From the NCBI GenBank assembly GCA_029834535.1, contig JAQMWT010000671.1, forward strand, positions 248,001 through 312,000: a stretch of DNA of 64,000 nt, written 5' to 3'. This DNA comes from Chrysophaeum taylorii (Eukaryota; Sar; Pelagophyceae; Pelagomonadales; Pelagomonadaceae). Below, in pieces: positions 1 to 38,936 of the stretch (position 1 is the first letter of the stretch; every line of letters starts with the position of its first letter). Under the pieces are notes generated by a model. It was not told the DNA's origin. It made no database searches and saw nothing but the letters and a program-made list of their open reading frames with translations. The translations under genes and the position numbers were made by a program.

Positions 1-769
1 TCACTTCACCGAAATTTTGTGTCCAAAACCCACCTCCTCAGATTCCTTCACTTTTTGGCTGACGGCCTGACCTTGACCCCGTCTTATGAGCGAAGTGGAG
101 CCGCGCTAGCTGGAGGGGGGAATATGTTGATGATTAGGAGGAAACGCGGAACAGAATGAGGAGCACACAAAGAAAGAAACAGCCGATATATATCGATGCT
201 GACGTCGAACACGCCCGGCAAAAAAAAACTGGATGATAAACCAGGGAAACGTGTTGCTCGGCGCGGACGAGACGGACAAAGTTGCCCTACTGCGCACGAA
301 GAAGAATTTCATTGCGGCGGCCCGGATCAAGCATAGCGACCTCGGACACCACGAGACCGAGTTAAAAAACGCCCGAAGGCAGTGACAGGGCGCGGCAGGG
401 ACCGGCGCAGGCTTTTTTTTCAAAAAAAAAAGAAATGACGCTCACTCAATGCCTGCTTTAATAAAAAAAAATAATCTTGTTCATAACGACCAGCCTTAGT
501 ACCGCCGCCCACAACGCATTATTAATCAGCCGAAGAGGCGTCGTCCTCGACGTCGTCCTTGGATAGCATCCGACGGACAGCGGCGCGGGCCGATGACAGT
601 TCCGAGACCGGCTCGTTCTCCCGAGGCCTCGGCGATCGCGGGCAGCTAAAAGAGGCGACGATCCAGTCGATGTGTCCGTCCTAAACGAAGATTCCCAAAA
701 AATCGCTCCAGTAGTTGAAGTCTCTCTCTCTCTTTTGAATCTCTCTCTCCTCTTCGCAGAACTCTCCGG
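1..769. other. gene-free stretch at window start
   Basis: I see no supportable gene here. There is a 105-codon minus frame (106-423) with no recognisable motif, a CT-rich tract just ahead of the next ORF (about 720-755) and short poly-A runs. The CT-rich tract could be a pyrimidine-rich 5' leader of the ORF at 770, which is inference only. Confidence 0.4.
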
Positions 770-17502: not shown

Positions 17503-19095
17503 TTATTCCTGCGGGCCGCCTTCCTCGGCGAGAGCATCTTCTTTATCATCGGACTCGTCGGCATCGCGACGAGGCAGCTCGCATTCGTCGTTGTGCTCGT
17601 GGTCGTGGTCTTGCTTGCGCCGTAGAACGACGCTCGAGTTGGGAAACACCTCGAATGGGTCCTCCAGCGATTCCATGTTGCCTGACTCGATGTCAGTTGC
17701 GAGTTGCTCGAGTTCGGCGCTGGTCATAAGCAGCGACTCCAGATCGTCTTTGAGGACGTCGTGCTTTAGATCCTGGCCCACAAATGTTAGCTTCTGGCTG
17801 GCCGGTTTAGACCCATCGAGGAGCCCCACGGGCTCGAAGGTTAGGATGGAACCGGCCTGCTGCCACTGGACGACGTGTTTTCCGCGTTCTTCGCCGGCAA
17901 TCCAGATGAAGCCCTTGCTTCGGAACAGGTTCCCGTAGTGCTCCAGGCGCGTCTTACGCTCATCAAAATCACACTGCATGTTCTCATCGTCTTCATTGTC
18001 GTCTTCTTCAACGTCATCCTCAACCTCCTCGGCCACCTCATCATCCTCAACATCCTCGCCGTCCTCGTCGTCGCCCAGAACGACCTGCTTCAGCGCGAAG
18101 TACTTTAGAAACCACTCGTACAATCGCTTTGGATGGAACGGCCGATCCGCTGTCCAGAAGAACCCGCTCACCCCGTACTCCAGAGTCTCGGGCACGTGCT
18201 TCACACCGCTCTTTATGTCCTTCATCCAGTTGTTGACACCCTCGGCGAACTCGCGGCTGAAATTCCCAGTGCGCAGGATGTTCGAAATCGGCGCACGGGC
18301 GTTCTGGGTACCGATCACCTGCGCCCGCGGATTGATCTTCTTCACGATCGTCGCCAGTCGCGCCTCGTTCTCCGAGCGCTCCTGCTTGGACTTGCCCAGC
18401 AGGTCCACCTTGTTCAGCAGTACCACGTTCGCGAATTCTAGCTGCGCGAACAGCAACGCGGCAATGTCCTGCTGCCCCTCGGCGCTCGTGTCTGCCGTTG
18501 GGTCGAGCTTGTCGATCGTTTCCAACGATTCCATATGCTGTTCCACCATCGACGCATCGATCACCGTCACGCAGTTGTCTAGTGGCGCTTCCTTCTGCAG
18601 CTCGTCGTTCCCATCCTCTAAATTCACGAAGAACGTCTCTGCTACTTGCATCGGCTCCGCGATCCCGCTGCTCTCGATCAGCACCGCGTCGAAGTCGCCC
18701 GACCGCGCCAGCTCGCGCAGCTGCACCAATAGATCTTCACGCAGCGTGCAGCAGATGCATCCGTTCGCCATCTCCACTAGCTTCTCCTCCTGCTTCAAGA
18801 GCTTCGACCCCTCCAGCGCCATCGCGTCTAGGTTCACTTCCGTGATCTCGTTCATGATTACCGCCACGCGAAGCCCCTCCTTGTTCTGCAGGATGTGTCT
18901 CATCAGGCTCGTCTTGCCGCTGCCCAAGAACCCCGACAGCAGCGTCACGGGCATCGCCTTCGTCGCTTTTTCCTCACCAACCCCGGCTCGCGATCCTGGA
19001 AAACTCAAGGCTTTCAGATCCTTCGCGAGTATCGAGCTTCCCGAGGGCGCCGGCTCTTCCACCTTGCCAGCAATCGCGCTCTGGCTTGCTTGCAT
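17503..19095 (-). CDS. ZNG1: ZNG1/CBWD-type COG0523 zinc-transferase GTPase
   Basis: A 530-residue G3E-family GTPase of the COG0523 group. The P-loop G-F-L-G-S-G-K-T lies at 55-62. The metal-binding motif G-C-I-C-C-T-L-R lies at about 112-119. An E-S-S-G switch segment and N-K-V-D base-recognition motif follow, and the C-terminal CobW domain holds an F-W-x-A-D-R-P-F-H-like stretch (F-F-W-T-A-D-R-P-F-H). Acidic runs at about 350-380 and a C-terminal H-D-H-E-H-N-D-E-C tract could bind zinc. Eukaryotic ZNG1 hands zinc to methionine aminopeptidase, and the family resemblance supports a zinc-chaperone role. The start is the ATG at 19095, since the frame upstream has only GTG. A decayed, more bacterial-looking relative lies about 1.4 kb away on the other strand. 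Confidence 0.88.
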   Translation of the reverse strand: MQASQSAIAGKVEEPAPSGSSILAKDLKALSFPGSRAGVGEEKATKAMPVTLLSGFLGSGKTSLMRHILQNKEGLRVAVIMNEITEVNLDAMALEGSKLLKQEEKLVEMANGCICCTLREDLLVQLRELARSGDFDAVLIESSGIAEPMQVAETFFVNLEDGNDELQKEAPLDNCVTVIDASMVEQHMESLETIDKLDPTADTSAEGQQDIAALLFAQLEFANVVLLNKVDLLGKSKQERSENEARLATIVKKINPRAQVIGTQNARAPISNILRTGNFSREFAEGVNNWMKDIKSGVKHVPETLEYGVSGFFWTADRPFHPKRLYEWFLKYFALKQVVLGDDEDGEDVEDDEVAEEVEDDVEEDDNEDDENMQCDFDERKTRLEHYGNLFRSKGFIWIAGEERGKHVVQWQQAGSILTFEPVGLLDGSKPASQKLTFVGQDLKHDVLKDDLESLLMTSAELEQLATDIESGNMESLEDPFEVFPNSSVVLRRKQDHDHEHNDECELPRRDADESDDKEDALAEEGGPQE

Positions 19096-20409
19096 GCTCG
19101 CCAACAAAAATATCTGCACACTTCGTCAAGAGTTCTCTCGCTCGGGTAAGACTTATTACGGTCCTCCTCTCCTAGACCGCTCCCTGCTCATTTATTGCTC
19201 GTGTTCCTGGAATCATGGAAACCTACAATTCCTATATTCACGGAAGAAGACACTAATATGCTCCCCACACACACCCCCCTCTTAACAGTCGACATTTAAA
19301 GACACTAATATGTCTTTAAATGACTGCTAAGAGGGGGGTGTGTGTGGGGAGCATGAAGGATGTGGGGTCTTTAAATGTCGACTGCTAAGAGGGGGGTGTG
19401 TGTGGGGAGCATGAAGGATGTGGGGTCTTTAAATGTCGACTGCTAAGAGGGGGGTGTGTGTGGGGAGCTAATATGTCTTTAAATGTCGACTGCTAAGAGG
19501 GGGGTGTGTGTGGGGAGCATGAAGGATGTGGGTGGCTAATATGTCTTTAAATGTCGACTGCTAAGAGGGGGGGGTGTGTGTGGGGAGCATGAAGGATGTG
19601 GGTGGGTTTGTGGGGTATGAGGGATGTGCCTGACGGGCGGAGATAAGTACGCGGGACCTAGTCGGGGTCATCGCCGAGGCGAGGGGCAGGCGAAGAGAGG
19701 ACGGGCCCCGCCCGTAGGTCGTACGCATGCTGCCGCCGGACGTATGTGCGACGAAGGGTGACGTCCTGCTGGGATCGGGCGGCCTGGGCGGGGTTCCCCG
19801 AGGCGGCGACATGGGTGAGGGCGGTGAGGGCACAGCGAGCCCGGCCTAATGCCAATATGTCTTCCTGCTATAGCAGAGGCTCGCCTGTGCCGCCAGCAAC
19901 AGGGAACAGTGAGCCGCAAGTGCAAAGTTCCCGAGGATGACAAGAAGAAGTTTGCTCTCCCGCGGGCCTATGTCTGCAGTGCGGGGGACGTTCCGGCCTA
20001 GGCGTAGAGCTGGCTGCTCGAAGGTGCGCACACGCGTGTTGTTGACGGCGTCGGCCGAGGGCGAGGAGGAATGGGCGGCGGTGCTGCGGTACAGCGGTGC
20101 CGTGGACGCTGGTGCTGCGGAAGCGCGCGGTGGCGCTGGTAGCAATCGTGGACCCGGCGCCGCTGGACCCCGATGTGCGCCTCGACAAAGAGCTGGCGTC
20201 GCCGCGCTCGGGACTAGGCAAGCCCCTGATGTGGACGCTGCAAAGCTGACGATTGGCTGCCGCGCGGTGACGCTGGGGGTGGCTGGCGTTCTGGCGCCGC
20301 TCTCGCTCAAGGTCGCGTTCGACTTGACCGGTGACCGGCCCCAGGCGCTAGCTGGCCTGCGTCGTCTACCTCGACCTGGCGCTGGCACCGTCCGTGGTCA
20401 ACGGGTTGC
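19096..20409. other. upstream region of ZNG1-like gene with minisatellite
   Basis: This contains the ZNG1-like promoter (19096-19250), the G-rich minisatellite (19258-19605) and GC-rich sequence. The segment 19795-19843 resembles 7795-7840. The 177-codon frame at 19937-20470 shows no recognisable domain. Confidence 0.4.
19258..19605 (+). repeat. G-rich minisatellite: five direct units plus one inverted unit
   Basis: Units of 50-68 bp begin with tctttaaatg at about 19312, 19368, 19426, 19476 and 19544. Each continues gtcgactgctaagagggggg, then a TG-rich run and ggggagc. Ahead of them lies an inverted copy (19258-19305). It can pair with the first direct unit (19310-19352) to form a hairpin with arms of over 40 bp. 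Each unit carries several G-runs, so quadruplex folding is plausible. Unit lengths differ through optional catgaaggatgtgggg and ctaatatg pieces. Confidence 0.9.
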
Positions 20410-22190
20410 TTGTGGGCCGCGTGGCGATTCCGGCGGACGCGACCCTCGCCGACGATACGCAGCTCGCTAAACGCAGCTACGCCCTCCGCCACGTCTTCCC
20501 TGCGGACTGCGACCTGGGCGCCGCCGCTGCCGACGACACCTCGCTCGCATGGTCGCGCTGACGCCGGCCGCCGACTCATTCGTCTGCGACGACCAGGGCC
20601 AGCGGCTCTGGTTTGGCCGTCTCGATGCCGAGATGTCCCGCGTCACCAAGCAGCACGAGCTCCACGTCCACGACGCCACCGCGGTCCTTATGGCGTACGT
20701 CGACGCGAGCGTCGAACCCACCGTCAACTCCCTCTCGCCGCGCGCCGGTGCCTCGCGCGGCAGCCGCTGCGTGCTCTGCCAGTCGCACGACTGGGCTGGC
20801 ATGCGCGTGCGTGCCGGCCGTCGAGTCCGACAACGCGGTCGACGTGACCGAGGGCCTGAGAGCCTCTGCGACGCGGTGCGCCGTCGACGAGTCGAAGTTC
20901 TCCCCTGGACAAGGTTGCGCCAATGATGCAGTACCACACGCAGGGCTGACGACGGTACACTTCTTCGAGGCTCGGGATCCGCCGCCCGACGTGCCCCTCG
21001 AGGAAAACCGACCTCTCCGACGACAACGATGTCTACTACTACTGGTAGGATCATGAGCAGGAGCCGGCCCGCGTCGATGAGCCGACGCGCCTCTTCCTCG
21101 CCGCCACCGGCGCTGTGTTGCACGCCGGCGCTGCCGCCGGCCTGGTCCAGCGCAAATGGGTCGGCGTCTTCGGCCGTGGCCATTAAGAGGTAGAGCCCGC
21201 GCCCAAGCAGCTGCCGTTCACCGTGCTGTCGGGCTTTTTGGGCGCCGGCAAGACGACGCACATGCAGCGCGTGTTCCAGCCCCAGAAGGTCCTGCGCGTC
21301 ACGGTCATCGTCAACGACATGCCCGCGGTGAACGTCGACGGCGCCCTGCTCCGTGCCGCGGACGTTGTGCAAAAAAAGGAGCACATGATCGAGTTGACGA
21401 GCACCGTGTCTGCTGCGCGCTGAGCGAGGACCTGCTGACAACGCTGCGTGACCTTGCGGACCGGCGCCAATTCGACTGCGTTCTCGTCGAGTCCTCAGGC
21501 AACCTCGGAGCAGCTGTCAATGGCAAAAAACTTTACCTTCGAGGATGGCGACGGCGTCTCGCCGGTCTTCAACCTCGACATCATTATCATCGTCGTCGAC
21601 GCGTCGACCTTTGGTGCCGAGCTCGCTAACTTCGTCTTCTGCCACCGGTCCCCGCTGCACCTGAGCTGCCAACGCCTCGACGCTTGGGCCGCCGGCGCCG
21701 TCGTCCTGCCAAGGGCTGGCACGTCCCGTGATTGGGACCAAGAGTGCGTCATATCCCTCGCCGGCCGTATCGCTTCGCTCCTGCTGCACCCCTCTGGTGG
21801 GTATCGGTCGACCGCGCAGAGTGGCCGACAGGCCGACGCCATCGCGCCACTCTGGTGCGAGGGCCAGGACGACTGCCAGAACGAGCTCGTCGTCATCGGT
21901 TGCACCATGGCAACCACGCCACCGTCATCGCCGCCCTCGAGGCCTGCCTCCTCCATGCAGGCGAAGCCACCCTCCTTCGAGGACCCCTTCCTCGCCCACT
22001 GGCTCTTCCTCGAGGCCGCCGCCGACGCGGGCAACGACCACGGCCACAACCACGACTGGCTAGCGTGTCCGTTGACGCCGCGGGCGATGGAGCGGCGCGC
22101 CGGCGTCTTGAACATCTTTGGCGTCTTGGGCCGGAGCGCCTCGAAACTCGGCTTATCGGCGACGCCGCGCTCTCCAATCCACCGAAAACC
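20410..22190 (+). pseudogene. decayed second COG0523 GTPase gene of bacterial type
   Basis: Pieces of a CobW-domain GTPase appear in order but in changing frames. L-S-G-F-L-G-A-G-K-T-T-H is at about 21223-21258. V-I-V-N-D-M and V-N-V-D-G follow. V-C-C-A-L-S-E-D-L-L sits near 21408-21440 and V-L-V-E-S-S-G near 21482-21502. F-T-F-E-D-G-D-G with V-V-D-A-S-T-F-G lies at 21530-21620. Q-N-E-L-V-V-I-G is near 21880, with D-P-F-L-A-H-W near 21980 and an H-G-H-N-H run near 22040. In-frame stops lie at 21046 (TAG) and 21184 (TAA), and the frame shifts near 21005, 21405, 21500 and 21880. An N-terminal extension (about 20430-21180) also reads as decayed protein. The order and motifs match bacterial zinc-associated COG0523 proteins better than the eukaryotic ZNG1 next door, so a transferred gene that later decayed is likely. 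Confidence 0.7.
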
Positions 22191-23557: not shown

Positions 23558-25159
23558 ATGGTGAGGCGTCGTCGTCGGGCGTTGGTCGTGTTGGCGGCCG
23601 TCGCGGCCGAGAGCGAATGCGAATGCAGGTGGAAGACGGGCAGAGGATGCGGCGCGAGCGGGCTTGAGCTCGAAGCGACTTTGCTCCGCGACTACGACCT
23701 GACCGTGAGGCCGGAAGTTTCGAAACGCAATTCTTTGGACGCCCCCCCCGATAACGTGACGATCGAGCTGTCAATGCTGTCGTTCGCGATCAACGAGATC
23801 GATCAGACGTTGACGGCACGAGGATACTTTCGATTGTTCTGGCACGATGATCGCCTCGCGCACGAAAGCCCTTGGGCCGACGACCGGTGCGCGCCGGGAT
23901 CGACGGAACGCGCTTGGAGTCTCAGCAACCAGTCATCGATCTGGCGGCCCGACATATATTCGGAAAACTTCCGCCAATCCAACGTCAGGCCCGAGGACAC
24001 GGCGTCCCTGACTTGGATCTACCCCGACGGCATGGTTTTTACTTCGCGATACATAAACGCGGTGTTCGAATGCAGCTTCAAGGCCCGACAATTGCCGTTC
24101 GACTCGCACACCTGTTCGGTCGAAATCGGCTCGTACAGCTTGACCAAAGACGACCTGATCTTGACAGCCCTCGGCGACGGCATCCCGTACGAAATCGCTC
24201 GCGGCAACAGCATCTGGCAGCTGGACAAGACGTCGGCGACGAACGTCGACTACACGTACCCCGCCGGCGTCTGGTCCTACGCGATATTGCAGATCCACGT
24301 GACGCGCCGGTCCAAGTACCATATCAACTACTCGATGATCCCGGCTCTTATATTCCTCGCGATCGTCTACTGCGGCTTCTTCGTCGACAGGGCGTCCGCT
24401 CCCGCGCGCGTCGGCGTCTCGATCACCTCTGTCCTGATCCTCCGACTCCTCCTCAACGCGGTCTTTTCCCAGATGGAGACGGTCAGCTACGAGATATACA
24501 TTACCCAGTTCCTCCAGATCTCGCTCATCTACGGCTGCCTCTCCGTCTTCCAGTACGCTCTCGTCCAGCACTACATGCACGAGGAGGAAATCGCCGCCTC
24601 GCGACGCCGCACCCTCGAAAAGCTGCAGGCCCGCGTCAACACGCGCATAGAGAAGAGCATCGAGATGCACATCAAAGAATCCAAGGGCAGCGACGACATC
24701 TTCCAGGAGGTCGCGATCGTCGACGATACCGACGACGACTACCTCTGGGATCCCCCGGGTCCCTGCAACCCGATCTGGGAGCGCGACATGCACAGCATGA
24801 AGGCGCTTTTTGACCGATTCGACTCGGACGGCAGCGGCACCATCGAAGCCCTCGAGGTCTCGAACCTACTCCGATACTACGGTCTCTTCGTTGACGTCGA
24901 ACACGCCAGCGACCTCATTCTAAACTGGCTCTTCATCAACAAGTACCCAATCCCACAAGACATAGCCAACGTCAGCCTCAACTTCCCCCAGTTCCAGGAT
25001 TTCCTCGTCAACTACCCAAAATACTCCCTCGGCGAGGCCGACACAAAAAACTTCTTCTTCCAACCGCGCTCCCTCCAGTGCGACGTCGTCTGCAGGTACT
25101 TCTGGTTCCCCGCCATCGGCCTCACGTACCTCGTCCACTGGATCTTTTGGTTTGGATGA
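23558..25159 (+). CDS. Cys-loop ligand-gated ion channel with EF-hand in the M3-M4 loop (paralog 1)
   Basis: A 533-residue pentameric ligand-gated channel subunit. A signal peptide covers about 1-17. The extracellular domain shows W-R-P-D-I-Y-S-E-N, Y-P-D-G-M-V and a canonical Cys-loop (C172 to C186, 13 residues between, with P-F-D). M1 is about 258-278. M2 begins at P-A-R-V-G (282-286) and runs V-S-I-T-S-V-L-I-L-R. M3 is about 313-337 and M4 about 514-532. The long cytosolic M3-M4 loop carries a helix-loop-helix with a canonical EF-hand calcium loop (D422-S-D-G-S-G-T-I-E-A-L-E433), then a second, degenerate EF-like helix pair. The PAR motif at the M1-M2 turn is typical of anion-selective members, and an Arg within M2 (12') is unusual. 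I start at this ATG because the upstream in-frame extension has only TTG and this Met gives the signal peptide. Confidence 0.9.
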   Translation: MVRRRRRALVVLAAVAAESECECRWKTGRGCGASGLELEATLLRDYDLTVRPEVSKRNSLDAPPDNVTIELSMLSFAINEIDQTLTARGYFRLFWHDDRLAHESPWADDRCAPGSTERAWSLSNQSSIWRPDIYSENFRQSNVRPEDTASLTWIYPDGMVFTSRYINAVFECSFKARQLPFDSHTCSVEIGSYSLTKDDLILTALGDGIPYEIARGNSIWQLDKTSATNVDYTYPAGVWSYAILQIHVTRRSKYHINYSMIPALIFLAIVYCGFFVDRASAPARVGVSITSVLILRLLLNAVFSQMETVSYEIYITQFLQISLIYGCLSVFQYALVQHYMHEEEIAASRRRTLEKLQARVNTRIEKSIEMHIKESKGSDDIFQEVAIVDDTDDDYLWDPPGPCNPIWERDMHSMKALFDRFDSDGSGTIEALEVSNLLRYYGLFVDVEHASDLILNWLFINKYPIPQDIANVSLNFPQFQDFLVNYPKYSLGEADTKNFFFQPRSLQCDVVCRYFWFPAIGLTYLVHWIFWFG

Positions 25160-25434
25160 TGATGAACTCCTTTTTCTCCTTCCTTCCACCTCGGGACCTT
25201 TTTAAACAACAATCCTACTACTTTTTACAGGACTACGCCCGCTTATTATTAGCAGTCAGTGAACCAACCAACCTCTCTTCGCGGCGAGTTATCTGTATTT
25301 TGGGATCGGAATCGGTTCAGGGTCGTCGTCGAGATTGATCTTGAAAGTTGTTTGATCAAATAATTATTATTATTTTAAGTATTTGAAGAAGTTCTCTTCT
25401 ATCCTCCTCACTATTGATTTATTTGATTTTTTCT

Positions 25435-25435
25435 A

Positions 25436-25467
<32 letters not shown>
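25435..25467 (+). repeat. (ATA) microsatellite
   Basis: Eleven ATA units, about 280 bp downstream of the first channel gene's stop codon. Confidence 0.9.
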
Positions 25468-25468
<1 letters not shown>

Positions 25469-26727
25469 CATCGATAAGAAGAAGAAGTTTTGATCATTAT
25501 TGTCATCAAACTCTTGGAACAATATATGATATGAAAAAACTTGGTCAGTCAATCACTCACTCAAAAGTTTCTCTGAGCCCGACCACCACTTCAGTTGTTG
25601 ATCATCATCTGACACAAAGCTTGGTCAACAAGTTTGATCACTAACACATGGATCAAACTTTAGCTCTGACAATCAAAATCTTATCTTCATTAAGAGGCAT
25701 CGTCAATGAGGTGACGTCTGAGCGCTAGTTGATGCGAAAGTGCTAAAAGAGTACGAGCACCTACGCAGATCTATCCTGCAGCATGGCGCGGTACACGCAC
25801 GGCTTGGGCACATGACCGACCGCCTACTTAGAAGGACATCATCCTAAGACAGCGCTTCGGCGATACGCGAAGAGGTTGTCCTGAGGGCAGCGATGGCTTG
25901 GCTTGGTTAAGCTGGACCCATGCTCGCACCATACATCGTAGGAGCATCCCAAACTGCAACTCACCATGGCACTGTTGCCATGGTCGTTCGCCATTCTTCG
26001 CCAACGGGCGGACACCAGAGGTTCATGGTCTGCGTGAGACCGATCACTCCTCCATTCTGGCTCTGTCACTTTCTGGATCCTAGAATCCGAGAGGGAGAGC
26101 GTCTTTGCGAATCGACATCAAGAGCGCGCAATTCGACAACCTCAAGCAACTGCCGAGGCAACGCTCATGGTGCAGCCTCGCATCGTTCTCCCACACCTGC
26201 GCTAGACGGTACGTCGCCACGCTCGCAGTTCAGGTGGGTGCCCTTCAACGTCGCGTACCCGATCCGGAGTTAGGTGTCCACCAGCTGGGACGTGGGACCG
26301 CAACGCGAACACGCGCCGTTATGCCCATATTAGCAACTCGCAAGACCGGAACTGAGCACCTACTTATCCTCCTCATGAAGCACCTCGCCCCCCCCCGCAA
26401 GATCTGCCGCAGCACCGTCGTGCACCGCACGAGGACGTCGGCAAACCCCAACCCCTGCTTCCCCCCCACACCCCATGGGTGGGGCTGGGCCCCCGAACCC
26501 CCTCCCCTTGTTTGGTCTCCCGAGCCGCGGCATCTCAACCGCGAAAGAAAGTCAACCACCTCACTCAGGAAGATCGCGGACATCTATAGCTCCAACCCTG
26601 GCGGCTTGCGTCAACGTCCTTCACTCACCCCAGTTCTCCTTTCCGCTCGACGCTCGGACCCCCGCCAATCTAGGCGAAAGAAAGCTTCGAGTTTGCTCCC
26701 TGTCATTAATCCGAGTCTCTAATACAA

Positions 26728-26975
26728 CAAGTTTGACGTGCTTGTCCGAAGTTTGATCACGCCAAGTGTAGTGGGGGGTTTTTGATCACAATGCTATATA
26801 TTTGACCACAAAGCGGCAAGTTTGATTGCGAAGTCACAAGTTTGATTACGAAGAATTTTTTGATCACAAATTTACAAGTTTGATGATCACAAAGCTGCAA
26901 CTTTGATCACAAAGTTTGATCACCATGTTACAAGTCTTTTGGTCACAAAGCTACCATATTTGACCATATTCGCGC
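26728..26975 (+). repeat. degenerate minisatellite built on caagtttgatcacaaagct
   Basis: About a dozen irregular copies of a unit near 20 bp, with the core aagtttgatcacaaag. Related words occur singly at 25590-25660. The copies have drifted strongly and spacing varies, so the array is old. No coding potential is visible. Confidence 0.7.
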
Positions 26976-28689
26976 ATCACACATGCGACAACGCTCGCAG
27001 ACAAAAAATTCTCAAACAATGCCTGCACAAGACACCGCTGATATCGCGTTGTTTCGCCGCCCAAGAGCACATTCAGATGCACCCGAGTTCGATGCTCTCG
27101 ACAGATTCCAGCGAATGAATGATCCTGGTTCGTCACATGGTGCCTTTGGCGGATGACGTTGTTGTGGATGTTTATCAAACGCTTCTGCCGATTAGAGCCG
27201 CCTGACTTGCCCTCCATGGAGCCCTTCATGAGGACCATCACGGCCTCGCGAAAGTGCTCCGTGCGCTTGGTGCCCAATGGATATCTCAAGCCGCTTGTTG
27301 TTTCTCATGAACTAACGTGCCGTGCCGAGCATATACGAAAAGCCTTTCCACCCCCTGCATCATATACCCACTCAACAACACACATTTTTTTTTTGTAGAG
27401 ATGCGAGGTAGCAGGCACGGAGCTGAGGGAAGAGAGTCGCCGGCGAAGGAATGGGGCCTGTTCTCTCCAGTAGAACGCGGGTTTGTCAAGGAACTTGTGT
27501 GGCCCCGAACGATGGCAGACATTGCAGTCCAGCCCCTGCCATCGTATCATACTCCCGTATCTTAGATGAGTGTTCGCAAACGTTGGAAGTCCCTAAGAAT
27601 ATGCGAAAACCACGCAACGTGACGGTACGCGTGACAGTTTGCACCCTCTCTTGACTTTAAGTTCAAAGCTCTTGAACGCGAGAGCTTGATCCCCAGCAGA
27701 AGTCTCGACGCCATAAAAGCCGCTTGCTTGAAACAAATCAGCGCGATGTGTAGAAAAAGCGATGAAATGTTTGTGGGCCTTCGAACGAGCGGATACGAAC
27801 TTGGCGCACGTCACGAAAAAGTCAACATTGTGGTCCACGCGCGTGTTTGGCGGTTGATGATGACGCACAAAATGATTAACATCGGCAAATCGTGGCCGAT
27901 CGGAATCTCGGTCGCTTGCAGTCTGGTCGCAAGTTCCTCGTACATTTCCGTTTTCGCGCGGTGGATGATTTCTCCGTGTGTCTCAGCACAGATTTGTCTT
28001 CCATTCGCCACAAGATTGAGTGCAATCAAACTCTAGTGACGAACACAATTCGAATGGTAGTTGCAGCATATCAAAGAAGAGGCATAAATGATGGCAAAAG
28101 CCAGCACGTAATTCTTTGCGCCAGATGTGATCCGTTTGCCATCGCGGATGTCCAGCCAGTACACGAAATCAGTCATGATATTGGTTTCCAGCAAACGTGT
28201 CCACATCGCGTTTGCTACGCACGTGCGATTGACACCTGGGCACTCGACGTGCTCGGCGTCATTGGGTGGTGGGTCTCCCTCGTGCTCGACGTCGATAGAA
28301 GGCTCACCCTCCATCTCCTGCCCCTGGTGATGTCACGACGTGCTTAGGTGCAGCAACCTCTGCACACGCGGATACGGCCTTGGACCTCGACAACTCGATG
28401 GACGCCGACCGACCTTGTGGCGAAGGACTTCGTGTCGCCACACAACACCTCCACCAAGCGAGACCACGAAAGGGGGGGAGAGGTAATGAAAGAAAGGTAA
28501 GGCTCGTAGCATCAGCACTTTTGCCACAGAAGTTCCCTCGTGTCGACGCAGCAGGTAATACAGAACTCTGAACAAAGCGAGAAGATATCTGAACACATGA
28601 TTGAAAAGAATGCGACAGTGACATGCGCGGTCTCATAAAACTCTGATGAATCCAACTCGTTACGATCCGTTCTTTGATTTTTGCCCCCA

Positions 28690-29370
28690 GCGTCCTTTGC
28701 AACGAAGACGGTGACAGCTAGCGGCTGGTTCGCGTGCAACTTGACGTCGCAGAAAATGAGGGCAGTTGTCATCCGCGTATGCACAGCGTCGGAGGGAAGC
28801 CGCCGCCACGGCAGCAGTGAATTGGAGATTTAGGGATTCAATGGAGCGCACTAAGATGTCCAGATCCCGCGAGTTTCAGAGGGCGACACAATACCTATTT
28901 GTCGGTGCTGCGGTCGACGACGCATACGAATGCCGGCGCTGCAGTCGACGCAGTATTGGACTTGTAGTAGCAGTAATGCGATGCTTTCGTGTTTCCGCAC
29001 ACAGTACGCACACTCTTGAATCGAGGCAAAGACTTGTTCACTCCAAGAACAGTATCGGTCCCTATCTCCTCGACGCGAGCTCAGCTCGTGCCGAAGCGAC
29101 CAACGTCGAGAGGGGGAAAGTTGGATACTTCCGCAACCTCCTGGCTCCAGTATTCGCGGCGACCCCCTTTGACGTTCTGGAGCGTCATGTATATAAAAAA
29201 ATCAAAGACTCTGAAGATCTCACCCTTCGTTGCAGCCCGATTTCCCTCCTCATTACGGCCGCCGTCGCCGCCGCGACCATGGTGTCCATTGTCTGCCTCG
29301 GGTACATGAGGGTGAAGTAATCCATCGGCGACTGAACGTTTCCGAAGTTAAAACCCCACAACGGCTGCAT
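28690..29370 (-). pseudogene. possible decayed DNA transposon (PiggyBac-like?)
   Basis: Minus-strand frames encode S-P-M-D-Y-F-T-L-M-Y-P near 29320. Then follows R-R-E-Y-W-S-Q-E near 29160 and G-R-F-G-T-S near 29100, with a stop codon between the last piece and V-E-E-I-G. The spacing of a P-x-x-Y-F segment, a D/E-Y-W-S segment and an R-F-x-x-I-like segment recalls the N-terminal part of PiggyBac-type transposases. No DDD catalytic motif was found and the frames break repeatedly. The assignment is speculative. Confidence 0.2.
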
Positions 29371-30709
29371 TGACCATCGATGCGCAATGCTTCAGTCCTC
29401 CCGCACGCACCAGGCTGCTGCCCGGAACGTCCTTTACCCGTCCTCAACGACGACGATGTTGCCTCCATTTTGCGCACAGCAAAGGGTCTCGTCCACTGAC
29501 TCCTCGACTTCGTCATCATCATCGCCGCCACTCCAATATTCTCCTGAGCACGTTCGCAACCTTGGAGCAGCAGCATCCGCGGTGTGATCTCCATCGTGAA
29601 AAAAAGTGGAGTCGCCGACGGTCCACTCGACAATTCAGCAAACCCTTTCGTTGCAAACCCGGAGGAATCCATGTCAGTAACATCTCATCACAACCGCCCC
29701 AGGGCCTTCAAAATCCCCGCCTTCCGCGTTGATATTTCCGGCGCATGACCCGGGTCGCGTCTGTCCGGCGGGTCCTTCGCCGTCTTCGAGGGATGAAAAA
29801 AAACTCGGCGGCCTCGGCAGCTAGCGACAAGCGGAGAAATTTGCGAACATGTACAGATCGCGCTCTTTCTAACGGTACCACAAACGCCCACGCGGCGTTT
29901 GCACTCAGCTCGGGAGAGAGAGAGATTTTCGAACAAAGTGTTCGATATCTCGAACGTAATTCCGTCGTGCGCAGATTATGGGGCCAATTAACACTTCTTT
30001 TTCTCGTTACGACCTCTCGAGATAGATGGCCCGACCTCGGCGCGCCGGGTGGTCGGTCTGTCTCAATGAACGGTAGAGTCCAAATATGCTGACTACAACT
30101 CAAACAATTTTGCTGGCGACCGCGGCTTCTTCTTCTTCTTCTTCTTCTTCAGGATTGCGTGTGCAGTTCGACCGTCATCGGCCCTATTTTTTTCATGGTA
30201 GCGCTCATCAACACACTTTCATAAAATTATCCGACGGAGTCAGATTATTATCGAGCAACGTTCGAACTGAGAATACATTATGCTATGGCCCCACTCCGAA
30301 CCGCGTTCTTTCAATGACTTGGGTGAAAGAAAACACGGCAATTTAACTTCTGATTTGAAGTAATAATATCCCGTGTTCCAATTTTTGATTGTACGCATTC
30401 ATGATATCGCAGTTTAAACCCAACGCCGTCAGAAAGCGTGGTGCTTTTTTAGCTAACGGCGTCAGGTATGGTTGCTTGATGTGTATGCTACAAGTGATAT
30501 GATAGGTAATGATTACGACTTACGACTTTTCTTCGCGCACGACGGAGGGCGCACTAATTTTGAGAATACGTCGCCGCGGAAACGCGTCGCGGAAATATCA
30601 ACGGCGGCGTCGGGCTTATGTATGCAGTCTCACGCTTTTTCTCAACCGCATCCTCGCCCAAGGTGGCTCTCGAAGTTCATATCCCGACTTTACCTTTATG
30701 CGCTCAGGT

Positions 30710-30732
30710 ATGAATGAATGAATGAATGAATA
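30710..30732 (+). repeat. (TGAA) microsatellite
   Basis: Five to six TGAA units; a further tgaatgaag lies a few bases on. Confidence 0.9.
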
Positions 30733-30759
30733 GCTGAATGAAGAAAAAATGAATATTGC

Positions 30760-30767
<8 letters not shown>

Positions 30768-30790
<23 letters not shown>

Positions 30791-30791
30791 C
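30768..30791 (+). repeat. (GTC)8 microsatellite
   Basis: Eight GTC units in gene-free DNA, about 700 bp upstream of the second channel gene. Confidence 0.9.
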
Positions 30792-31490
30792 AGGCGTGGC
30801 CCCAAGAAACTTCGATGTGCAGTCAGCTTAGAACAGGTTCATCATGGGACCGCAGGGCTTCAACGCCGGTGGCCAGCAACAGAAGGTTGGCCAGCATGGA
30901 TCACTTTTTAGACCGGTGCCATTCCTATGCATGAGACGCGATCTGAGTCAATCATCGAGCCTGGCAGTCATAGATTTGCCTCCATGAGAATGGAGCTGTC
31001 CAAGGCGCTTTCGACCAAACGTCACAGCAAAGCTAATTTTTCCCAGCCGCTGAACGAGCATCTGCGGCCTCGAGGCAACAACTCGCGGCGTTGCTCGCGC
31101 ATCGCAGCGACGGACGAAAAGCTGAGATTTTAACCGCGGGAAGAAGAGAGTGCACCGGAGTACGTGTCTTCTTCTTCACGATTGCGGACACGACGGCGAT
31201 CTCCTTGGCCGTGTCGACGATGTCCCAGCTGCAGAATTAATAATCCGAAAGGCCATTTTTTTTTAAAGTCAGTCAGAAGGGAGGTTGTTTTTTTTTTTTT
31301 GAATTTTGATTTCATGGCTGCTGGGCGCCTGTCCCAATACCCCCGTCGAATTCCTGGTATGATGCTTGTTGTTACTAAAATGAATGGATGTATTTCCCTA
31401 ATACGTAATGAGATCGAGATTCTTTTCTTCGGAGGACCAGAGACGCCATCCATCCACATAAGGTGTCGAGGTCGATTGACAGAGGAGGAG

Positions 31491-33134
31491 ATGAAGGTGT
31501 TGGTGGTGTGGGTGGCCATTGCGTTCGCCGACGAGGCTTCCTTTAGCGCGTGCAGATGGCAGACGACGGTGGGAAACCAGAGCGTGTGGACGGTGAGCAG
31601 CAATGAGCTCGAAGAGGCGTTGCTGGGTGATGGGTACGACAAGAGCGTGCGTCCGGGCGTCGCCGCGACGAAGGAAATCGACGCTCCCACCGAAAACGTG
31701 TCGGTCCATATGCATTTGCTGTCGTTTGCGATCGACGAGATAGACCAGACGATGACGGCCCGAGGATACTTCCGGTGGTTCTGGCGCGACCAGCGGCTCG
31801 CGTACGAGAGTCCGTGGGAATATCCCGGAGCGTGCGAGGAGCCCGAGCAAGTGTGGAACCTGAGTCCCGAGCGCGAGATCTGGCGACCAGATTTGTACGC
31901 GGAGAACTACCGGGAGTCAAATATTTTAGACGAGGAGACGGGGAAGCTGACGTGGATATACCCCGACGGTTCGGTGTTCTACTCGCGGTATCTCAACGCC
32001 GTGTTCGAATGCAAAATCAAGGCCCAGAAGATGCCGTTTGACTCGCACGTTTGTTCGATCGACGTGAGCTCGTACTCTTACTCGGCGACGCACGTGCGCA
32101 TCACGGCCGAGGAAAACGGAATAGACCCCGACTCTACTCGAAGCAACGCCATCTGGGAGTTGGATAGGACCTCGGCACGAAGCGAGCTGCGGTATTATCA
32201 CGACTCGGTGTGGCCCTTTGTGACGCTGAGGATCCACATCACCAGGCGATCCAAGTACCACAAGATATACTCGATGGTGCCCGCGGCGATATTCCTCGCG
32301 ATCGTATACGCGGGATTTTTCATCGACCGAACCTCCGCGCCGGCCCGCGTTGGGATTTCTGTGACCTCGGTCTTGATTCTGCGGTTGCTTTTGAACTCGG
32401 TGTTCGCCGGGATGGAAACCGTCAGCTACGAGATCTACCTGACACAATTCTTGACGATAGCGCTCGTCTTCGGGTGCGTCTCGGTGGGTCAATACGGCGT
32501 CGTCCAGTACTACATGCACGAAGAACAAAGGGCGGTGTCGCGACGATGGACCCTCGAAAAGCTCAAGGGCCGCACCAACACGCGCATGGAGAGCGTCAGG
32601 TCGCGACGCCCAAAGTCGCGGCCGCCGCCGAAGCGCAGCTCTTCTTCCAACGAAGAAACGAAGAACGACGACCCGCCCGCGACGACGACGGACGACGCCG
32701 ACGACCAATGCTGGGACAACAAATATCTCCCGAGTCCCCGCAACCCCATATGGGACCGCGACGTCGAGTACATGAAAGCTCTCTTCGACCGGTTCGACTC
32801 GGACGACAGCGGCCGGATCGAAGCCCGCGAAGCTTCGAACGTTCTCAGGTACTACGGCGTCTTCGTCGACACGAATCACGCCCGGGACCTCATTCTCAAC
32901 TGGCGCTTTATGAACAAACTCCAGATTCCCGTAGACCACCGCAACGTTAGCCTCAATTTCGCCCAGTTCCAGGACTTCCTCTCTAACTACGAAAACTATT
33001 CCCTCGGCGAGGCCGATACCAAGAAGTTCTTGTTCCAACCTCGCTCCCTTCAGTGCGACGTCGTCTGCCGGTACTGCTGGTTTCCCGTCGTCGTGATAAC
33101 CTACCTCCTCCACTGGGTCGCCTGGTTTCGATGA
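31491..33134 (+). CDS. Cys-loop ligand-gated ion channel with EF-hand in the M3-M4 loop (paralog 2)
   Basis: A 547-residue paralog of the channel at 23558, collinear along its whole length. A signal peptide covers about 1-14. The Cys-loop runs C174 to C188, again with 13 residues between and M-P-F-D-S-H. The M2 start is S-A-P-A-R-V-G (PAR at 284-286), with the same Arg at 12'. The M3-M4 loop is longer than in paralog 1 and holds Arg/Pro/Ser-rich and Asp-rich linkers. Its EF-hand loop is D436-S-D-D-S-G-R-I-E-A-R-E447, where Asp replaces Gly at position 4 and Gly stays at position 6. The C-terminal C-D-V-V-C-R-Y-x-W-F-P leads into M4. I start at the ATG that gives a signal peptide and aligns with paralog 1, although the frame is open for another 109 codons upstream. 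Tandem duplication of an ancestral channel gene is the simplest origin. Confidence 0.9.
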   Translation: MKVLVVWVAIAFADEASFSACRWQTTVGNQSVWTVSSNELEEALLGDGYDKSVRPGVAATKEIDAPTENVSVHMHLLSFAIDEIDQTMTARGYFRWFWRDQRLAYESPWEYPGACEEPEQVWNLSPEREIWRPDLYAENYRESNILDEETGKLTWIYPDGSVFYSRYLNAVFECKIKAQKMPFDSHVCSIDVSSYSYSATHVRITAEENGIDPDSTRSNAIWELDRTSARSELRYYHDSVWPFVTLRIHITRRSKYHKIYSMVPAAIFLAIVYAGFFIDRTSAPARVGISVTSVLILRLLLNSVFAGMETVSYEIYLTQFLTIALVFGCVSVGQYGVVQYYMHEEQRAVSRRWTLEKLKGRTNTRMESVRSRRPKSRPPPKRSSSSNEETKNDDPPATTTDDADDQCWDNKYLPSPRNPIWDRDVEYMKALFDRFDSDDSGRIEAREASNVLRYYGVFVDTNHARDLILNWRFMNKLQIPVDHRNVSLNFAQFQDFLSNYENYSLGEADTKKFLFQPRSLQCDVVCRYCWFPVVVITYLLHWVAWFR

Positions 33135-34102: not shown

Positions 34103-35135
34103 CGATCCTGCTCATCTAAACAAAAATTCCTTGTCTCCCTCCTCCTGTGACCCCGTTGTGTTTTTGCTTCCCCGTCCTTTATGCCTGCCTGCCTGCCTGC
34201 CTACTCGCGCGCGATCTCGCGCGCGCGCGACACTCGCGGCGCCTGTGCCTTTGAAGAAGAAGGAGGAGGCTGGCTTTTCGTTGGAGAAACGCTGCCAGGA
34301 ATAGGAGGAAGAAGCAGGCGACGGTATCAGCCGTGCGCCGAACCGCACCGCCAACCGACGTGTCGGCTGCGCATGATGCGATACCCGCGCATACTGCTGC
34401 TGCTTTCGATCAGGTCGCTCCCCCCCCCCAACACCCGGCGCAGGAACTTGCGGCGGTTCGTACTGAAAATGAATGCGGCACTGGTTCGCGAGGAGATACG
34501 CGGTCTCCCCCACAGCCTCGCCGTGCGCGACCTTTCCGCTGGTACACTCCTACAATCACTCCCCTGGACGTCCCTACGATCTAGTCGGTCAACACTCATA
34601 CTGTCGCGAAGTTGTCTGGAGAACTCTTCGTTTGGCGACCACACATTGTTCTTTATTACTCGCAACCCTCGCCATTGTGATGGCGCTGCTGCTAATAAGC
34701 TCTCTACGAGACCTGCGAAGAGTACGCGTGACCAACGGAGTCGTTGGCTTCTTATTACTTTGTCTGTCACGGTTTGAGTGGTACCCACGGAGTTTCAACG
34801 ATCGCAGATATTATTGAATCCGAACCTCGGCCTCGCTGTGGGGGCTTGCATGTTGAGCGCGCGTCCGGGTCATCCGCTCCTGAGAGCGGCTTGTCTGTCT
34901 GTGGTCGCCTTTTTCGGGGCTCAAATTGGTGGGAAGCGGGAGCCATCATGTCATGCTGTCTCAGAGTCTAGTAGGTGTATACCGCGCGGCGGCGGCGCCG
35001 CACACATAGAAAGAAAGAAAGAAAGAAAGAAAAAAAGGCTGCTGCTGCACCACCATATCGCGACGCCACCCACTTCACGCTTACCCTAATTTTCGGTGGC
35101 GTTAAAAAAGTAGTCAAGAAGTCGTCTCTTCTCGG
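34103..35135. other. gene-free stretch
   Basis: No supportable gene. It contains a (TGCC) run (34182-34202), a CG-dinucleotide-rich patch (cgcgcgcgatctcgcgcgcgcg) near 34206-34230 and an (AAAG) run (35008-35032). Confidence 0.5.
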
Positions 35136-38100
35136 ATGTTGTTGTTGGCGGCGATATTGATCGGGTGTGCGTCTTGTGAGGAGATCGTGGGAATCGTGTC
35201 AACGGAGGCCGGGGTCGAACGGGGTGCGACCGTCCGGGAACTCGCTGCGTACGAAGCGTACAATGAGGGCGTCGCCCTGTCGGCGCGCGACGTTGTGATG
35301 GCGATCGCGAAATTCGAGGAGGCGATTCGCATCAAGCCCGACCTGCCCGAGGCGCGGATCAACGCGGGTAATTTGCTCGCGGGGCTCGGGCGGACCGACG
35401 AGGCCGAGGCGATGTACGCGGCAGCGTTGGAATGTGCGGATCATCCGGTCATCCGGGCGCAGGCGTCGTCGAACCTCGGACTCAGTCTGCACAAGCGTTC
35501 CAAGGTGGGCCTGGGGATGCTGGAGGAGGCCGAGGCGCACTTGAAGCGCGCGATCGAGCTGGCTCCGGACTTTGTAGACGCGCGCTTCAACTACGCCACG
35601 CTGTTGCAGGACCTCGGTCGGGTCGACGAGGCCGAGCGAACGTACGAGAAGGTACTCGAGCTTGCGCCGGAACACGAGAACGCGCGCCTCAACCTCGCCA
35701 ACGTGTATTTTGGTCGTGGCGAGACCTCGAGGGCCGCGACCCTCCAAGCGACCCTTGCGAACGACGAGGCAGTTTCGGCAAAAACGCGTCTCAACGCTCT
35801 CAACAACCTCGGTCAGACGCTGCGCGACGCCAACGAACACAGGAGAGCCGAGGTCGCCTTTCGTCGAGCCGCAGAGCTTGCGCCCGACGATGCGACCACG
35901 CTCGCGAACCTCGCCACGGCGCGCCGCACGCTGTGCGACTGGTCGACTCGCGAGCGAGATCATCTCGCGTCGCTCGCGGCGCCGGGTGGGGTTATGCCCT
36001 ACGACGCGCTCATGATCGGGGAGGCGTCGGCCGAACAGATCCGCGACCTGACCAAGGCGCACGTCGAGAAGAAGTTCGGGCGACCAAACGTTGTTCCTCG
36101 GAGAAGGAGGACGACGCCGCGGCCATCGCGTCTGGTCGTCGGGTACTTGAGTTTCGACTTGCGCGAACACCCGATGGGGTACCTGACGAGGCGGCTCGTG
36201 TCGCAACCGGGCGCCGTCGCTCTCTCGTACGGCGAGGACGACGGCTCCGAGTTGCGGCGGCGAGCCGAGCGGAACATGGTCGACATTGCCAACGCCTCGC
36301 TCGGCGAGGCTTCCGAGCGCATGCGCGCGGTCGACGTCGTCGTCGACCTCATGGCCCACACGCGAGGGGCGCGCTTGGAGCTCGGCGCAGTCGCCGACGC
36401 TCCCCTCGTGTTGAGCTACTTGGGCTACCCCGGCACGGCCGGCGGCCGGCACTACGACTTTTCGATCGTCGACGCCGTCGTCGCGCCGCCCGAACGCGCG
36501 AGTCGCCATTTTGCCGAACCGCTCGTCGTGCTCCCGCACAGCTACCAGGCCAACGACTACGCCGACGACTTTAGCATGCCGTCGTCACAGGACCCACAGG
36601 AAGCCCAGCGGTTGTGCAACTACAACAACGTCGACAAGTTCGAGCCGGTTTCGTGGGGGCTGTGGATGAACGTGCTGCGGCGGAACCCGCGGGCGACGCT
36701 GACGCTGCTGCGGCCCAAGAGCGCGGGGATCATGGAAACGCTCGCGGCGGAGGCTGCGGCGCGCGGCGTGAGCCCTCGGCGGATTGTGTGGTCGCCGCGC
36801 GTTCCGAAGCGCGAGCACCTCGAGCGCCTCGCGACGGAGTGCGACGCGTTTCTCGACAATCTCGTTTACGGCGCGCACACGACCGCCTCGGACGCGCTCT
36901 GGGCCGGGGTTCCCGTGCTCACCCTTCGCGGCTATGGCGACGGCCGCTTTGCGAGCCGCGTCGGCGCGTCGCTGCTGGGGGCGGCGGGCCTCGAGGCGCT
37001 CGACTCGCTCAAGGACTTTGAGACGGAGGCCGCGCGCCAGAAAGAAGACTACTGGGCTCCGCTCAAGCGCGCGACCCTGGCCGCCTCGATGCGCGGGCCA
37101 CTCTTCGACGCGCGCCGGACGGCCCGGGACCTCGACCGCGCCTACCATGCCGCCTACGAGCTCGCGCACTTTGGTCTTTGGCGGGGCCACGTCGTGCTCG
37201 CGCCGCAGACGAACCCGTCGCGCGCGCGGCGCGATTGCACGCTCCGGTCAATCCTCCGCGCGCTCGGCGCTCGCGACCCGCCTTGCGAAGACGACGACGA
37301 TGGCGATCATCATGACTTGGCCACCGCACTCTCGGCGGCGCGGCGCCTCGCTGCCGCGTTTCCGCGCGACCCGGACGCGCGACACGCGCTCGGGCTGGCG
37401 CTGCACGCTTCGGGCTCGGACGCCGCGGCTTCGCGCGAGCTCGAGGCCGCGTGCCGGCTCGCGCCCGACGTCGCGCACTTGTGGTCAAACCTCGGACACG
37501 TACGGCGCGCTGCCGGGTCATATTTCGAGGCAGCCGCGGCCTTTCTCGCCGCGGGCGCTCGCGACGACCTCCGCGAAACGCTGCGCGCGGCCACAAAAAA
37601 CAGGAACGCGACGACGACGCAAACTAGTAGCGTCGTCGTCGTCGAGGCCGCGTTCGTGGCGTCGACGCTATTCCCCACCGAGCCCGACCTCAAGCTCCAG
37701 CTCGGAGCGGCGCTGGACGACGTCGGCGACGCGCGCGGCGCTCTCGAGGAGTGGCTCTCCGCCGTGCGCGAGCGCCACGAGAAAAGAAGAGGCGGCCGCG
37801 TCTCGGAGGTGGCTATTGTGTGCGACGAGTACGGGCAATCGTGGTGGCCCGGGTGGGGCCCCGGATCGCTGGACAGCGGGGGTCTCGGAGGGTCGGAAGA
37901 ATCGGTGGTCTTTCTCGCGCGAGAGCTCGCGCGCCTCGGGTACCAAAAGATCGACGTATTTCTCGAGAATCCGCCCCCCGAGGATGTCGGCGACGACGAG
38001 CAAGTTCCGGGCTCGTTGGTGTGGTGGCCCCTCGACGCCTACGAGAGCGCCGACGTCCTCGTCGCGTGGCGCTACCACATCACCGCGGCCCTCCCCGCGC

Positions 38101-38936
38101 GACGCAAGTTCGTCTGGCTCCAGGACGTTCCGTCCTACGCCTCCTGGACTCCCGACTTTATCCGCGGCCTCGACGCCGTCTTCACGCTCTCGGCCTTCCA
38201 CACGCGCACGCTCCCCTTTGCCGCGCGGGCCAAATCTGTCGTCTCGCCCAACGGGATCGACCCAAACTACCTCCGCGACGGCCCCAACGATCCCGCAGTC
38301 TTTGCCTACGGCTCGGCGCCAAACCGCGGCCTCTACGACCTCCTCCGCGTCTGGCCAAACATCCGCGCGGCCGTCCCGAACGCGACTCTGGTTGTCTACT
38401 ACGGCTTCTCCGCGAGCTTCCTCAAGTGGGGAAAGGCCCACATCCCCGCCTTTGGAGTATGGCGCGCTCAGGTCGAGGCCTTGCTCCGCCAGGACGGCGT
38501 CCACTACGTCGGCATGGTCGACCACGACACCTTGGCGCGGGGCTACGCGCGCGCTGGCTTTCTCTTGTACCCGACAACCTATCCCGAAACGGGCTGCGTC
38601 ACCGTCATGAAGGCCATGGCGATGGGCGCCATCCCCGTCACCTCCCGCTACGCCGACTCCGTGGTCCCCGAGCTCACCGTCCACTTCGACCTCGGCCCCA
38701 CCGCCCCGCGGACGGCACCGCCCGAGGCCTCTATCACCCCGGCGGACTTCTCCGACCCCGCGTGGATGGCCGACTTTGCCGACGCCGCAATCGCCGCGGC
38801 GCGCGCCGGGTTAAAAGGGCACCTCGACGCCCACCGCGTCGCCATGAAGTCCTACGCGCGCTCGCGCTTCCTCTGGAGACATGTCGCTTCCACCTGGGCC
38901 GCCACCTTCTCATCATCATCATCATCATCATCTTAG
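35136..38936 (+). CDS. secreted TPR-GT41 (OGT-like) fused to TPR-GT4-like glycosyltransferase
   Basis: A 1266-residue single frame. Residues 1-14 look like a signal peptide. TPR repeats fill about 45-265. A GT41 (O-GlcNAc transferase/SPINDLY-type) catalytic region covers about 330-680. It shows D-L-R-E-H-P-M-G-Y-L (active-site-type His near 345), L-S-Y-L-G-Y-P-G-T-A-G-G near 426-437 and the UDP-site-like G-A-H-T-T-A-S-D-A-L-W-A-G near 579-591. Further TPR-like helices follow (about 725-890). A second enzyme module (about 890-1240) resembles family GT4: S-G-G-L-G-G-S-E-E-S at 914-923, S-P-N-G-I-D near 1037, and Y-P-T-T-Y-P-E-T-G-C near 1145-1154. Known OGT is cytosolic or nuclear, whereas a signal peptide predicts secretory-pathway action. 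Two transferases in one chain could build a two-sugar unit, which is inference. The Ser run before the stop comes from a (TCA) array. Confidence 0.85.
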   Translation: MLLLAAILIGCASCEEIVGIVSTEAGVERGATVRELAAYEAYNEGVALSARDVVMAIAKFEEAIRIKPDLPEARINAGNLLAGLGRTDEAEAMYAAALECADHPVIRAQASSNLGLSLHKRSKVGLGMLEEAEAHLKRAIELAPDFVDARFNYATLLQDLGRVDEAERTYEKVLELAPEHENARLNLANVYFGRGETSRAATLQATLANDEAVSAKTRLNALNNLGQTLRDANEHRRAEVAFRRAAELAPDDATTLANLATARRTLCDWSTRERDHLASLAAPGGVMPYDALMIGEASAEQIRDLTKAHVEKKFGRPNVVPRRRRTTPRPSRLVVGYLSFDLREHPMGYLTRRLVSQPGAVALSYGEDDGSELRRRAERNMVDIANASLGEASERMRAVDVVVDLMAHTRGARLELGAVADAPLVLSYLGYPGTAGGRHYDFSIVDAVVAPPERASRHFAEPLVVLPHSYQANDYADDFSMPSSQDPQEAQRLCNYNNVDKFEPVSWGLWMNVLRRNPRATLTLLRPKSAGIMETLAAEAAARGVSPRRIVWSPRVPKREHLERLATECDAFLDNLVYGAHTTASDALWAGVPVLTLRGYGDGRFASRVGASLLGAAGLEALDSLKDFETEAARQKEDYWAPLKRATLAASMRGPLFDARRTARDLDRAYHAAYELAHFGLWRGHVVLAPQTNPSRARRDCTLRSILRALGARDPPCEDDDDGDHHDLATALSAARRLAAAFPRDPDARHALGLALHASGSDAAASRELEAACRLAPDVAHLWSNLGHVRRAAGSYFEAAAAFLAAGARDDLRETLRAATKNRNATTTQTSSVVVVEAAFVASTLFPTEPDLKLQLGAALDDVGDARGALEEWLSAVRERHEKRRGGRVSEVAIVCDEYGQSWWPGWGPGSLDSGGLGGSEESVVFLARELARLGYQKIDVFLENPPPEDVGDDEQVPGSLVWWPLDAYESADVLVAWRYHITAALPARRKFVWLQDVPSYASWTPDFIRGLDAVFTLSAFHTRTLPFAARAKSVVSPNGIDPNYLRDGPNDPAVFAYGSAPNRGLYDLLRVWPNIRAAVPNATLVVYYGFSASFLKWGKAHIPAFGVWRAQVEALLRQDGVHYVGMVDHDTLARGYARAGFLLYPTTYPETGCVTVMKAMAMGAIPVTSRYADSVVPELTVHFDLGPTAPRTAPPEASITPADFSDPAWMADFADAAIAAARAGLKGHLDAHRVAMKSYARSRFLWRHVASTWAATFSSSSSSSS

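Follow-up and report, generated by a model that had tools for sequence, protein, structure and literature searches.

Predicted EF-hand pair in the M3-M4 loop of Cys-loop receptor subunits from the alga Chrysophaeum taylorii

The stretch from position 248,001 to 312,000 of contig JAQMWT010000671.1 of the pelagophyte alga Chrysophaeum taylorii (64,000 nucleotides, forward strand; referred to as the window) encodes two Cys-loop receptor subunits, here called protein A and protein B. Within the loop between the transmembrane helices M3 and M4, both proteins harbor a module in which a canonical 12-residue EF loop is followed by a degenerate half, and which is predicted to fold as an EF-hand pair (Table 1). 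This domain combination is probably new, the channel class is already known, and a function as calcium switch is plausible.

A preliminary description of this DNA had spoken of two such paralogs. Both are real, and there are at least three in the genome. The third paralog, P0003, lies some 80 kb upstream of the other two on this contig (G000:C671:190656-192515) and displays the same domain order with the EF loop DADRSGAIEPKE. Three database proteins with this domain order, P0004 and P0005 (source lgn) and P0006 (source ena), complete the family, which confirms at least three paralogs in this genome and three relatives outside. The module is present in all six members found and the canonical loop in five: the loops of P0004 and P0005 begin with DVDHSG and DFDHSG, and in P0006 Glu-12 is replaced by Ser in a module that is itself kept.

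The canonical EF loops and their degenerate partners, as proposed in the preliminary description, were found in the M3-M4 loops of both A and B. The loops were detected with a PROSITE-like 12-residue pattern. When the M3-M4 loops of A, B and P0003 are shuffled, the pattern turns up in 0.3-0.5% of them; five of the six family members bear it at the same aligned position. In the second half of the module, A and B possess no acidic residue at loop positions 1, 3, 5 or 12 in the chosen register, and Glu-12 of the second loop is lacking throughout the family (6/6). Against the EF-hand_6 profile, for which the curated cut-off is 25 bits, full-length A (24.7 bits, E 1.6e-5), B (20.4 bits, E 3.7e-4), P0003 (24.2 bits) and P0006 (14.3 bits) score below this value, and P0004 (27.8 bits) and P0005 (27.9 bits) above it. 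When the modules (97-101 residues) were scanned alone, EF-hand_6 and EF-hand_7 each matched all six at E <= 0.1; with EF-hand_6 the module of A then reaches 27.9 bits, above the cut-off, and the best E-value among the six is 2.2e-8. A profile built from the six modules retrieves troponin C, centrins and calmodulins from the Protein Data Bank (PDB; best 60 of 273 matches at E <= 0.01). The best whole-chain E-value, 7.2e-9 for troponin C, sums several EF-hands of that chain; the best single stretch, with an E-value of 0.0034, covers the first hand (profile positions 9-43). The module accordingly contains the helix-loop-helix with a canonical 12-residue loop that marks the EF-hand superfamily.

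Modeling of the module of A alone with AF2 gave a structure with a predicted local distance difference test score (pLDDT) of 87.2. The model comprises four main helices and two short strands, and its fold matches include calmodulin, troponin and centrin, with the calmodulin and centrin matches spanning module residues ~1-89. In the model the module thus folds as an EF-hand pair resembling one lobe of calmodulin. The pairing of the two hands is taken from this model, because coverage by the sequence profiles is largely confined to the first hand. The predicted pair fold and the canonical loop are shared with the lobes of calmodulin, troponin C and centrin; unlike these proteins, however, the module of A and B is covalently built into a ligand-gated channel and its second loop is degenerate.

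Conservation within the M3-M4 loop is distributed unevenly. Mean pairwise identity among the six members is 0.55 for the first EF-hand and 0.50 for the second half, which is close to the values for M1-M3 (0.57) and M4 (0.54), compared with 0.39 for the extracellular domain, 0.13 for the linker preceding the module and 0.30 for the 13 residues following it. Between A and B, nonsynonymous (dN) and synonymous (dS) divergence amount to 0.14 and 1.07 in the first EF-hand and to 0.26 and 0.94 in the second half, where a dS near or above 1 is close to saturation, and to 0.75 and 0.37 in the linker (35 codons). The EF loop by itself (dN 0.15, dS 0.33) comprises 12 codons and is too short to weigh. By these measures, the module is a constrained domain inside a loop that is otherwise free to vary. 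At the entry of M4, moreover, the motif F-x-x-[QK]-P-[RT]-S-L-Q is found in all six members.

These data bear on the simplest alternative, namely that the 12-residue match arose by chance in an acidic disordered loop or that the segment is spliced out. The full-length EF-hand scores below the curated cut-off in A, B, P0003 and P0006 speak for an artefact of this kind. A chance motif is nevertheless rejected by the loop shuffles, the profile matches to all six modules and the confident EF-pair model, in addition to the above-threshold scores of full-length P0004 and P0005 and the low dN relative to dS in the first EF-hand. The module furthermore reads through without interruption in all six proteins, and an intron-retention artefact is unlikely given that the segment is conserved in frame across them. 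None of the outcomes that the preliminary description had named as refuting was seen: the modules score as EF-hands, the module model adopts the EF-hand-pair fold, and the segment is conserved coding sequence in the six proteins. We regard the alternative as largely refuted and its probability as very small.

The identification of A and B as Cys-loop receptor channels, also put forward in the preliminary description, is borne out by both domain profiles. Neur_chan_LBD (PF02931; Pfam cut-off 26 bits) scores 79.6 bits in A and 101.8 bits in B, and Neur_chan_memb (PF02932; cut-off 28.1 bits) 32.8 and 41.9 bits, respectively. The frames of both genes are uninterrupted and intron-free, and the proteins are 59% identical across 96% of B. 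For protein B the ATG at 31491 was chosen as start; the frame is also open upstream (31134-31490, + strand) with in-frame ATGs at 31314, 31359, 31362 and 31380, and the N-terminus may be longer. The cysteines of the Cys-loop enclose 13 residues in A and B alike, the loop A motif WRPD-[IL]-Y is found in both, and alignment reveals four transmembrane segments in each. M4 of protein A was missed by hydropathy alone (below 1.5), which does support M4 in B and P0003.

Table 1. Positions of the two receptor genes and their features in the window.
Feature	Position	Residues	Strand	Evidence
Protein A (533 aa, one exon), Cys-loop receptor subunit	23558..25159		+	open frame; Pfam
Protein A, Cys-loop CSFKARQLPFDSHTC	24071..24115	172-186	+	direct from sequence
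Protein A, M1-M3 with APAR before M2	24311..24556	~252-333	+	alignment to B and, via B, to glycine receptor
Protein A, predicted EF-hand-pair module	24755..25051	400-498	+	EF-hand_6 on module; AF2 model; fold matches
Protein A, canonical EF loop DSDGSGTIEALE	24821..24856	422-433	+	12-residue pattern
Protein A, M4	25067..25153	~504-532	+	alignment with B
Protein B (547 aa, one exon), Cys-loop receptor subunit	31491..33134		+	open frame; Pfam
Protein B, Cys-loop CKIKAQKMPFDSHVC	32010..32054	174-188	+	direct from sequence
Protein B, M1-M3 with APAR motif	32250..32495	~254-335	+	
Protein B, predicted EF-hand-pair module	32730..33026	414-512	+	EF-hand profiles
Protein B, canonical EF loop DSDDSGRIEARE	32796..32831	436-447	+	12-residue pattern
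Protein B, M4	33042..33128	~518-546	+	hydropathy window 522-540; helix 518-546 in low-confidence full-length model

Further hallmarks of the superfamily are invariant in the six members, including Pro182 and Asp184 of the F/YPxD loop, Arg252 preceding M1 and Pro264 in M1 (numbering of B). A Phe or Tyr in front of the Cys-loop proline is absent and replaced by Met, Leu or Val, and the proline between M2 and M3 is replaced by Glu or Gln. According to the accessible text of a survey of the superfamily, neither feature is universal, with the M2-M3 proline present in 88% (PMC4795631).

A Pro-Ala-Arg sequence at the inner end of M2 is the signature of anion channels. The APAR motif preceding M2 is invariant in all six members and aligns with the APAR of the glycine receptor. 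The closest PDB relative of B is the GABA-rho1 receptor (107 bits, E 9.3e-30), followed by glycine and GABA-A receptor subunits, and the best stretches of B in solved chains end at or before residue 357 (best 60 of 250 matches in each case). A full-length structure model was of low confidence (pLDDT 53); its Foldseek matches to glycine, GABA-A and GluCl receptors are in line with the result by sequence and are no independent proof. Because of the APAR motif and the nearest PDB relatives, the sequences point to anion channel subunits of the glycine/GABA receptor type. In addition, an arginine in loop D is invariant in all six members and the aromatic residue in loop B is Tyr in four of six; by the chemistry of glycine and GABA receptors, this suggests an agonist of the amino-acid type. 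With glycine, GABA-A/rho and GluCl receptors, A and B share the ligand-binding and transmembrane domains, the 13-residue Cys-loop, the APAR motif and the loop D arginine, and their best PDB matches in sequence and fold are, among the matches listed, anionic-type Cys-loop receptors. In contrast to these receptors, however, they carry the EF-hand module in the M3-M4 domain and lack the M2-M3 proline.

By the topology of the receptor family, the module would lie on the cytosolic side, with a long, variable linker between it and M3 and only about 20 residues between its last helix and M4. The cytoplasmic domain of animal receptors terminates in the MA helix, which runs on into M4 (accessible text of PMC7105636), and the EF-hand pair of A and B occupies a comparable place. 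We infer that the canonical loop binds Ca2+ and that Ca2+ modulates the channel, the latter because the module sits next to M4. In the reading that we prefer, with a probability of about 0.56, cytosolic Ca2+ on the canonical loop tunes gating or desensitization of a ligand-opened anion pore through the nearby M4. An extracellular chemical would open the anion pore of the pentameric Cys-loop channel, cytosolic Ca2+ would bind to the canonical loop and alter the packing of the module at or close to M4 and the inner mouth, and the altered packing would tune gating or desensitization via M4. The channel would thereby integrate an external chemical with intracellular calcium.

Two observations weigh against this reading. 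The stretch between module and M4 is poorly conserved at residues 504-516, and P0006 keeps the module without Glu-12, so that Ca2+ may not bind there in at least one member. The former observation leads to a second explanation, in which the EF-hand pair serves docking or trafficking in a calcium-dependent manner: it would bind to a partner or to itself, govern assembly, clustering or surface delivery, and leave gating unchanged. The variable linker and the 13 poorly conserved residues behind the module would suit such a freely moving domain. By the title of a study cited in PMC7105636, the calcium sensor VILIP-1 is said to upregulate functional alpha4beta2 receptors, and this too would fit docking. 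The M3-M4 loop of animal nicotinic receptors holds determinants of trafficking and targeting, as stated in the accessible text of PMC7105636. On the other hand, the short distance between module and M4 in all six proteins and the fully conserved motif at the M4 entry hint at a closer coupling, and we consider docking without an effect on gating possible, if rather unlikely.

The P0006 loop also provides the best argument for a third explanation, according to which the module is a structural fold that stands in for some of the cytoplasmic domain and has lost calcium sensing in vivo: the module is retained there despite the exchange of Glu-12 to Ser. The lack of Glu-12 in the second loop of every member fits this as well. 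However, five of the six first loops are canonical even though they differ from each other (DSDGSG, DSDDSG, DADRSG, DVDHSG, DFDHSG), and it is difficult to see how the pattern would persist in differing loops unless metal binding were selected for. A purely structural role therefore appears improbable. Returning to calcium tuning through M4, a more far-reaching version can be put forward tentatively and with considerable doubt: this separate algal Cys-loop lineage might act as a coincidence detector, in which an amino-acid-like extracellular ligand and cytosolic Ca2+, sensed by the EF-hand lobe next to M4, jointly govern the opening of an anion channel. In such a detector the sensor would be covalently fused, whereas animals use separate calcium-sensor proteins.

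EF-hands within a channel are shared with TPC1, a channel of 2x6 transmembrane segments whose fold differs from that of Cys-loop receptors. As far as the accessible text of a 2024 survey of diatom calcium channels extends, TPC1 of plants and diatoms carries EF-hands between its two 6-transmembrane domains, the second EF-hand of plant TPC1 is needed for Ca2+-dependent gating, and diatoms possess Cys-less receptors as well as EF-hands in two-pore channels (PMC11085791). Cys-loop channels in algae are already known: anionic-type, cationic-type and Cys-less receptors are described for Aureococcus in the accessible text of Jaiteh et al. 2016 (PMC4795631). The M3M4 region is described there as variable and rich in gaps. 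The term EF-hand is absent from the main text of that paper; its alignment dataset may include a receptor that has one. As judged from titles, opening lines of abstracts and selected passages, the literature searched, in which subscription papers are few, offers no account of an EF-hand inside a Cys-loop receptor. The notion that described members of the superfamily are devoid of EF-hands is hence uncontradicted in this literature; its coverage is partial, and eukaryotic proteomes were not covered systematically.

The distribution of the family is to be read with the scope of the searches. Since the search of the genome (70.8 Mb, 697 contigs) ignores introns, receptor gene counts are lower bounds. 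Two of the protein searches were limited to scoring the 7998 candidates with the most words in common, and a search with 123 residues of P0004 scored 210 candidates and missed the known members P0001, P0002 and P0006, so that absence of further relatives means little. Scans with the family alignment gave 78 pattern stretches in viral contigs and 222 in contigs of prokaryote genomes, none of which was confirmed.

Three more loci of the genome match the receptor in part (two on contig C544, one on C249) and lack both the EF pattern and a Cys-loop of 13 residues. On C544, the neighboring frames L004 and L005 match the ligand-binding domain with 48.5 and 38.6 bits; without a Pfam transmembrane match at E <= 1 and without a 13-residue Cys-loop, they are perhaps divergent Cys-less receptors. 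The locus on C249 (L019:1187-5791, - strand) is a frame of 1534 codons with a PF02932 match of 29.3 bits in six-frame translation, above the cut-off, and 25.0 bits at full length, below it. The stretch of about 1000 residues following this transmembrane match gave no Pfam match at E <= 0.1, and the locus may encode a channel of the receptor type joined to an unknown domain.

Elsewhere in the window, a frame of 1276 codons (35106-38933, + strand) comprises TPR repeats, a glycosyl transferase family 41 domain resembling O-GlcNAc transferase and, close to the C-terminus, a weaker match to group-1 glycosyl transferases. A CobW-family GTPase frame (172.6 bits) lies at 17506-19125 (- strand), and a short P-loop frame (GFLGAGKTT) at ~21187-21423 on the opposite, + strand looks like CobW family by eye. 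The large subunit of Rubisco is located on contig C697, with 7yk5 as best PDB match; several of the top PDB entries are red-type enzymes of diatoms, which would fit an ochrophyte alga.

Among the parts of Cys-loop receptors, the cytoplasmic domain varies the most, and solved structures show it incompletely. A folded calcium sensor at this place would be a direct handle on the control of the pore via M4, and its predicted presence suggests that one protein may sense both an external chemical and internal calcium. If the preferred reading is true, receptors of the neurotransmitter type would be tied into calcium signaling in unicellular algae, which have no nervous system. The family would then also be a natural template from which to build ligand-gated anion channels that calcium can tune.

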